Assembly (NCBI GenBank): GCA_021781745.1
Contig: JAJXWH010000021.1
Coordinates: forward strand, 20,401-84,400
From: Bacillota bacterium
GTDB lineage: Bacteria; Bacillota; Clostridia; Clostridiales; Clostridiaceae
Direction: 5' to 3'
Length of the DNA stretch: 64,000 nucleotides
This document shows positions 26,031 through 28,743 of this stretch, piece by piece. Both the position numbers and the translations under genes were made by a program. The notes below the pieces were generated by a model. The model had not been told where the DNA came from and did not search any database. It saw only the letters and a list, made by a program, of their open reading frames with translations. Each line of letters begins with the position of its first letter. The first letter of the stretch is position 1.

Positions 26031-26426
26031 ATTACCAATAATTTTTGCAGAAGACATTACTTAACTGGTACCGTCAATGTACATGCCCTCACCTTTCAAC
26101 AATCCTTGTCATTATATAGTGAGGCCAAGTTCCAGGCGTCCATTTTTTTGTATATGCATCACTTTTCTTCAAATCATATAATTAAACCACCAGTATGCCC
26201 TCTCCATAATCTTTAATTTAACGTATTTTCCTATATTTTATTATATTCTGATACTAGATAAAATCAGCGTTTGAGTACAATTGGTATTTTATTGTAACTT
26301 ATTATATTTTTGCGTTAAGGGAAAATACAAGGAAAAAAATAACAATAAGGTAATAGGTGTAGTCCTATACTGTATGCCTTTATAAATCTAAAATATGATA
26401 CTTTACCCAAAAAGCTCTTTGCATAA
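26031..26426. other. Non-coding gap, no gene recognised
   Basis: About 400 bases follow the nitroreductase without an open frame of note. The part around 26060-26150 is less AT-rich than its surroundings and may be relic coding or insertion-sequence DNA, but no family could be assigned. No clear hairpin with a T-run follows the nitroreductase stop. Confidence 0.5.
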
Positions 26427-26525
26427 TCTTTATCATCAATTAATAAACTTAATACCATAATATCAACTAAGCTTGGAGTTGCTCTAGATGCAGCTTCTAG
26501 TGATAATTCTAATAAAGTAGCTTGA
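26427..26525 (+). pseudogene. C-terminal gene fragment A (pair with fragment B)
   Basis: This plus-strand frame is open for 32 codons to a TGA and encodes a tail containing NKLNTIISTKLGVALDAA, ending DNSNKVA. It has no start or ribosome site. Fragment B at 27789 encodes a closely similar tail, also ends in KVA-TGA and also is followed directly by a hairpin terminator. The preserved reading frame says both derive from real genes of one family, which I do not recognise. Confidence 0.5.
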
Positions 26526-26527
26526 AT

Positions 26528-26564
26528 AAAGGCGATAAACGTTTTAAAAGTGTTTATCGCCTTT
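26528..26564. terminator. Intrinsic terminator between fragment A and the phosphotransferase pseudogene
   Basis: The arms AAAGGCGATAAAC and GTTTATCGCCTTT are perfect and 11 bases apart. It sits between convergent units and could end both. Confidence 0.85.
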
Positions 26565-26571
26565 AAATTAT

Positions 26572-27543
26572 TTATTCAATTCCTATGAAATTTAGTACTT
26601 GTTTAGAATTGTATTTAATCATATCATTAACATCATTCATATCTGGATATGATTTTTCCTTGAGCTCTAATGCACCTGAGAGACATGAAATATGCAAATG
26701 CATCTTATAAAATTTTAATCTGTCTAAATCAAGATTATCTTCATTAAAATATTTGTAGCACTCACCAAATCTAAATTGTAAAAAACTATGCTCATATTCT
26801 GCATCAAAAAACATAGCACTCTCTATATCTATTAAGTAAGTATGAAGATTTTCATCTACAAAAACATGATTAGGCCCTAATTCCCCGTGTATAAATGTAT
26901 AGTCATTTCGAGGCTTTACATTGTCATATAATTCTCGTATTTTGTTAATTAGCATAATCTTATTTTTTAGTATTCCTTCATGAAATCTTGAAGAATATTC
27001 AATTCATTTTATGCTTCTTATTAATAATATTTCTTCACTTCTACTACCTAATGCTCTTTCAGCTTTAAGATTTCCATAAAACTTATTTTTGATAGAATGC
27101 ATTTTCTTAATGTTCTCATTTAAATCAGTAAATACTTTATATTTAGTCTCTTCATCAGCATAAAAATATTTTTCAATGTCTCCGCCTGCTGTATATTCAA
27201 CTAGTGCAAAATCAAATGAGTAATCTTTCTTACTTCTGTCTATATAATAAATTTTTGGTGTCCTAATTCCATTTTGTGTGAGGAATTTATTGTTTAATTC
27301 AAATAAATCCGCCCCACTTGATTCAAATATATCATTATCATTTATTTTACAATTAAAATAATTCATAGAATTATCCCAAATATAAAGAATAGAGAAAAAG
27401 CCTTTATTGCACTCGATTTTATATGTTACTTTCTGTGCACCTCCATAAAGTCTAATAATCTTAAGTATTTTATAGTCTTGACCTAAGCTTTTACATAAAA
27501 TCTTTTGTAAATATACTACTTCTATATGATAATCTTTATTCAT
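26572..27543 (-). pseudogene. APH-like phosphotransferase split by one in-frame TGA
   Basis: Two tracked ORFs (27004..27543 and 26572..26955) lie in the same frame and are separated only by a TGA at 27006-27004. Reading through gives about 323 codons, the normal size for an aminoglycoside-phosphotransferase-like kinase. The N-terminal half has the ATP lobe, ending in the hinge FALVEYTAGGDIEKY. The C-terminal half has the catalytic loop FIHGELGPNHVFVD and metal site LIDIESAMFFD. The region between reads on without other stops. AAGGAGATAAAC precedes the ATG. The gene is probably inactivated recently by a single base change. Confidence 0.85.
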
Positions 27544-27686
27544 TTAGTTTATCTCCTTACAATTGATATCTTTTCTATAATCAAATGTACTCGCGAGTTA
27601 TTCTGATAATAAAATTTTATCATTTTATACATATATTACTAGACTTATAATTTCCAATGTGTTATCATAATGTCATAAGTTTTTTA

Positions 27687-27716
27687 AAAATCACTAGAGA
27701 ATTTCTAGTGATTTTT
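27687..27716. terminator. Hairpin terminator-like element
   Basis: The arms AAAATCACTAG and CTAGTGATTTT with a 7-base loop are followed by TTTT on the plus strand. It stands in a 480-base gap without intact genes, upstream of the phosphotransferase pseudogene, so the transcript it once ended is unclear. Confidence 0.6.
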
Positions 27717-27788
27717 TGCTTTTCAATAACTTATTTTTATTAACTTATTTTATGCCCTTAACTTTTCCAATAATTCTATTAATAATAC

Positions 27789-27869
27789 TCTTTGGATAAA
27801 TTAAGTACAATAATACCAACAAAGCTCGGAGTTGTTATAGATAATGATAATTCTGACAAAGTGGCGTGA
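27789..27869 (+). pseudogene. C-terminal gene fragment B (pair with fragment A)
   Basis: The plus-strand frame encodes SLDKLSTIIPTKLGVVIDND and onward, ending SDKVA-TGA. It aligns with fragment A over its whole length, with small differences and one short gap. No start codon or upstream domain remains. It is followed two bases later by a strong hairpin, as is fragment A. Confidence 0.5.
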
Positions 27870-27870
27870 G

Positions 27871-27912
27871 AAAAGGCTATAAACATTAATTTTTCAATGT
27901 TTATAGCCTTTA
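27871..27912. terminator. Intrinsic terminator after fragment B
   Basis: The arms AAAGGCTATAAACATT and AATGTTTATAGCCTTT are perfect with an 8-base loop, followed by T-rich sequence. It resembles, but is not identical to, the terminator after fragment A. Confidence 0.85.
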
Positions 27913-28023
27913 AACTTTTTATGCTTTTCATTTTACAAATTGAATTATTAACTTGTATACATTAACTAAGCATTTAAATTTTAAGTTAAATTACTGGTTG
28001 GTGCAAAAGTTGAATATTGCTAA

Positions 28024-28635
28024 CTAATATAAAGATGTAGGAAGTTTGCATTCTATCATTTCCATACAATTTGTATTGTTCTCTAATGTGCCCGTTATAA
28101 TTTTAATATGATTTGCAAATATGGTTGGATAATCAATTTCATCATATTCTGCACGAATTAGAAATGCAAGTTGTTCTTTATCTATAGAAAATTGAGGTAT
28201 CTTGCCATTTATGCTTCTATGGGCGTCTATTCGAATCCATTTGTTTATTGATGAAAGAAAAACCGCATTTAGAGCGTGTATGGCATATCTTATTCCTGGA
28301 GTGTCGTCTAAAGATACTCTTTAATAACAAAAGCCCGTTGGAATACCTTGGAATCTCAATAATGAAGCTAATAACATTGACTTTGCATAACAGATACCTT
28401 CTTTATACATTAATACTTCTGAAGCTGTTCTTGTGACCCTCTCACCTTTAATATCGCAAAAATGTGAAATTTCGTCTCGTAAATATTCAAAAGCAATTCT
28501 AACCTTTTCAATTTCGTCCATATTCCTATGAAACAATTCCTTAATCTTGTCCCGAATAATTTTTTTATCAAAATCTACATATTTGCTTGCTACTAAATAG
28601 TTTGATAAATCTTCATGCTCCAATATTAAATTCAT
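28024..28635 (-). pseudogene. Transglutaminase-like protein split by one in-frame TAA
   Basis: The tracked ORF (28321..28635) ends at a TAA right after RFQGIPTGFCY. The same frame then continues for 98 sense codons (RVSLDDTPGIRYAIHALNAVFLSS and onward) to a TAG at 28024. Relatives have Gln at the position of the stop (FCYQR), so CAA to TAA is the likely change. The protein is a transglutaminase-like (cysteine protease fold) protein. Its nucleophile is the Cys in YKEGICYAKSMLLASLLR, the His is in YAIHALNAV and the Asp is in WIRIDAH. Full length would be about 203 residues. Product as it stands: a truncated, probably inactive 104-residue piece. Confidence 0.88.
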
Positions 28636-28743
28636 TCATGTACCCCCATCTAAAAATAATCTCTACTTCACATCAATTTACAATGCTATATATTTTTTTA
28701 ACTTTTACACCTCTTAAAACAAGCGAACTATATCATAAAAATG

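Follow-up and report, generated by a model that had tools for sequence, protein, structure and literature searches.

The stop codon TGA can be recoded in clostridia, in which case an in-frame TGA is read as an amino acid. One survey reports that in-frame stops with dN/dS below 1 are widespread in bacteria, and proposes read-through for them (PMC7918605). Two neighbouring genes, an APH-like phosphotransferase gene and a transglutaminase-like gene, each carry one in-frame stop in a window of 64,000 nucleotides (the whole stretch of DNA that was analysed) from a member of the Clostridiaceae. Both are very probably young nonsense pseudogenes of dispensable and patchily distributed genes, each stopped separately. 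The features of the interval are as follows.

26412-26522, plus strand: 3' end of a degenerate YvrJ-family gene, convergent with the phosphotransferase gene
26528-26564, strand not assigned: terminator-like hairpin common to the phosphotransferase gene and the YvrJ remnant, read from the sequence
27543-26572, minus strand: very probable pseudogene of an APH-like phosphotransferase, 323 codons, interrupted once, with the PF01636 match running across the stop
27006-27004, minus strand: in-frame TGA, codon 180 of the phosphotransferase gene, 5' of the codons for the catalytic loop HGELGPNHV and for DIE
27783-27857, plus strand: another YvrJ 3' remnant, in a more advanced state of decay and convergent with the transglutaminase gene (weak, E=0.015)
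28635-28024, minus strand: very probable transglutaminase-like pseudogene, 203 codons, interrupted once, with the PF01841 match running across the stop
28323-28321, minus strand: in-frame TAA, codon 105 of the transglutaminase gene, between Cys82 and His120/Asp137

Translated across its stop, the phosphotransferase frame gives 323 amino acids and the transglutaminase frame 203, each with a sole internal stop and without any further lesion. The Pfam family APH (PF01636) matches phosphotransferase residues 86-256 across the TGA (E=1e-9; 38.9 bits against a cut-off of 23.2), and Transglut_core (PF01841) matches transglutaminase residues 35-138 across the TAA (E=9e-10, above the cut-off). An earlier note on this DNA had described a single in-frame nonsense codon at these positions in each of two otherwise intact genes, and both frames and Pfam matches confirm that description. 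Past the stops, 143 codons remain open in the phosphotransferase and 98 in the transglutaminase (chance probabilities of about 3e-7 and 1.5e-4, respectively, from local base composition), and coding-potential scoring identifies the halves on either side of each stop as coding. In the phosphotransferase, the catalytic loop (approximately residues 219-227) and DIE (239-241) both lie 3' of the TGA; the read-through frame of the transglutaminase holds the Cys-His-Asp triad (Cys82, His120, and Asp137). Because both stops precede catalytic residues, the truncated products are judged to be inactive: from what is known of the two families, the phosphotransferase would be left without its catalytic residues and the transglutaminase without His120 and Asp137.

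Other readings of the 3' halves were considered and set aside. The open reading frame at 26572-26955, although it has its own start codon, is merely the 3' part of the broken phosphotransferase rather than a separate gene. Independent translation of that part was rejected, as its ATG at 26955 is not preceded by a well-placed ribosome-binding site, and so was that of the transglutaminase 3' half, where no start occurs within 25 codons. The usual catalytic-loop motif of the APH family has Asp where a group of proteins with HxELGPNH has Glu. The catalytic Asp of an HxD motif is absent from the window phosphotransferase and from its relatives in genomes G072 and G174; all of these read HGELGPNH or HSELGPNH. 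Glu at this place is seen in the window copy and at loci L023 and L035, which include an intact relative from another genus. A PDB search with the phosphotransferase profile returned one weak match only, unrelated-looking.

The transglutaminase was compared with 82 relatives, namely the best 80 of 358 that the family alignment retrieved in a scan of genomes, and two from a search of the genus. In all 82 of this set, Gln stands at the TAA site and the Cys-His-Asp triad is intact. The closest relative (L036; a Clostridia MAG, 82% identity) has CAA at this site and Clostridium homopropionicum (71%) has CAG. Since the closest intact relative has CAA and all relatives of the set have Gln, a C-to-T change on the coding strand explains the TAA. 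Intact relatives of 202-203 amino acids are present in C. homopropionicum, C. intestinale, and many Bacillales; within the genus, a close transglutaminase is found in 3 of 69 genomes. The window copy differs further by W60C, where 74 of the 82 relatives have Trp, and by a terminal stop that is shifted to one codon later than in the closest relatives, L036 and L037. Three of the 82, from Halonatronum, Gracilibacillus, and Halobacillus (L040, L079, and L087), are interrupted elsewhere by a single nonsense codon, which lies at Trp60 in two of them and at residue 173 in the third; judged from these sequences, the gene has undergone repeated loss via single nonsense changes. In one genome of the genus (G075; L026:354-1884), the intact transglutaminase relative is immediately preceded by an intact APH-family gene of another type.

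The phosphotransferase is comparably patchy, with matches at E <= 1e-3 in 4 of 69 genus genomes including the present one, of which three, this one counted, are close. A single-protein scan of genome contigs with the phosphotransferase did not find relatives. The closest relative, in G072 (83% identity), has GAA (Glu) at the TGA site and is damaged otherwise, by a 13-base gap that causes a frameshift near the C-terminus. The copy in G067 (45%) is interrupted by two TAA codons and lacks a clear start corresponding to the N-terminus of the window gene, and an intact relative is present in a different genus of the family (G174). A change from GAA to TGA would require two substitutions, or else another precursor codon; the route from CGA to TGA is not supported by these comparisons. 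The C-to-T origin that the earlier note proposed for both stops therefore holds for the TAA, and does not extend to the TGA. For both genes the stop removes functional residues, and relatives have a sense codon at the orthologous site. That note had named the same stops, together with many further lesions in sister genomes, as the mark of old pseudogenes; both stops are absent from all relatives compared, which belong to other species.

These sites also bear on two explanations in which the stops are not what they appear to be. Selenocysteine or another recoded residue at the TGA would draw on the general ability of clostridia to recode this codon, but it is given next to no weight: no tRNA-Sec scores above the Rfam cut-off in the genome (best 42.7 against 47 bits), the homologues examined have Glu or Asp, never Cys or selenocysteine, at the TGA site, and the stop of the neighbouring gene is TAA, a codon not used for selenocysteine insertion. 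An error of sequencing or assembly behind one stop, or behind both, is conceivable in a draft genome of 129 contigs that is the single assembly available for its species. This is nevertheless improbable, in that the stops are substitutions rather than indels, W60C and the shifted terminal stop of the transglutaminase fit a decaying gene, and the TGA is two bases away from the codon of the relative.

Between the window and G072 phosphotransferases, dN is 0.077 and dS 0.435 (dN/dS 0.18), and the ratio is 0.33 before the TGA and 0.06 after it (Fisher p ~5e-4). Rough polarised counts assign 26 synonymous and 20 non-synonymous changes to the window branch, figures that are approximate given that codons with multiple changes were handled base by base and that one outgroup was used. 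The phosphotransferase was constrained during most of the window branch, and its stop is therefore recent. The contrast before and after the TGA is most simply explained if the C-terminal lobe is the more conserved half. For the transglutaminase, ratios are elevated on both the window branch and that of the intact L036; the window ratio does not exceed the L036 ratio, so the comparison gives no clear dating. Sense codons in relatives, intact frames, and purifying selection on the phosphotransferase branch uphold the recent inactivation under relaxed selection that had been suggested beforehand.

The low ratio past the TGA (0.06) is also what would be expected if the region were still translated, and the survey of in-frame stops with low dN/dS lends a precedent (PMC7918605). 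Termination at both stops might then be leaky, with a little full-length protein still made; this has a low probability, and a slightly lower one is given to its functional form, in which read-through would maintain two costly accessory enzymes at very low levels. The window stops resemble those of the survey in having low dN/dS around them, but differ in not being conserved across species, as neither is found at the same site in any relative examined. Moreover, the stop is TGA in one gene and TAA in the other, nearby relatives bear other, clearly damaging lesions, and constraint that predates the stop accounts for the low ratio. Recoding or suppression, already held to be remote in the earlier note, stays improbable in view of the lack of a tRNA-Sec above the cut-off and of the unconserved stops.

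The DNA around the two genes is consistent with separate histories of the proposed pseudogenes. The match of the phosphotransferase to G072 covers 26434-27741 only and that of the transglutaminase to L036 covers 28010-28649 only, in each case a single gene with short flanks in unrelated surroundings. Such single-gene matches in differing surroundings give both genes the look of accessory units that moved independently. Each YvrJ remnant adjoins a terminator-like hairpin, the remnant on the transglutaminase side being similar but weaker. Intact YvrJ copies that match PF12841 and have the same hairpin are present elsewhere in the genome (contigs C53 and C85), and intact YvrJ genes in L003-L005 have the same hairpin arrangement downstream. 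The remnants are additional marks of gene decay across the interval. No defence family was found by PADLOC, and Rfam detected two T-boxes and one pan motif, all away from the broken genes, and nothing else.

The proximity of two lone stops, about 1.3 kb apart, had been called notable and could point to a mutagenised or hypermutating strain as the source of both. Other isolated nonsense changes were counted in a scan of coding potential over 464 kb of genome, using 400 kb of stretches, with antisense shadows and normal gene junctions removed. Genes with a lone in-frame stop in the 464 kb are this pair and two more, the latter in 380 kb from other contigs. One is a YqaJ-like recombinase (contig C53 near 69730; L142) with a lone in-frame TGA where the G072 relative (L027) has Trp, and the other a polysaccharide deacetylase (contig C85 near 64327; L127) with a lone in-frame TAG. 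Hits at C85 184014, C85 188827, and C32 90588 were rejected as antisense shadows of long open frames, other hits because they resemble normal junctions between genes, with a start codon present, and C85 81996 was omitted from the count as an unclear case. Extrapolation from this small sample gives, roughly, 30-50 lone-stop genes genome-wide. On a similarly rough estimate, about 0.2-0.6 pairs as close as this one are expected by chance, and the pair is therefore not striking; it is notable only mildly. With just two other lone-stop genes in 464 kb and that chance expectation, the mutagenised industrial strain proposed earlier is not needed, and a mutagenised or hypermutating strain is very unlikely.

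Under the favoured explanation, that of two young nonsense pseudogenes, the phosphotransferase and transglutaminase genes would each have been acquired recently, on its own, as an accessory unit of one gene, remained intact for a time, and then received one nonsense substitution without, as yet, further obvious decay. Comparison with relatives shows that the transglutaminase lost a universally conserved Gln codon through a coding-strand C-to-T change; in the phosphotransferase, a TGA has arisen at a site occupied by Glu in its closest relative. The likely cause is weak selection on dispensable, patchy genes in an AT-rich genome, and not one event hitting both. This would be ordinary bacterial gene loss, of little importance beyond annotation, in which the two genes should be entered as pseudogenes and not as split or recoded genes; the pair also illustrates how a single nonsense change may end patchily distributed single-gene acquisitions.

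Compared with known systems, the phosphotransferase is like the APH family (PF01636) in its Pfam match across the gene and in having HGELGPNHV in the position of the catalytic loop and LIDIE in that of the metal site; it differs in being interrupted and in the Glu of its HxELGPNH loop. The transglutaminase likewise has the triad residues of the transglutaminase-like superfamily (PF01841) in its read-through frame, and differs in its interruption between Cys and His and in W60C. Set beside young nonsense pseudogenes of free-living bacteria, both genes share one premature stop in a frame that is otherwise intact, an accessory character, and relatives with sense codons; there is no substantive difference, and the two in this window happen to be neighbours.
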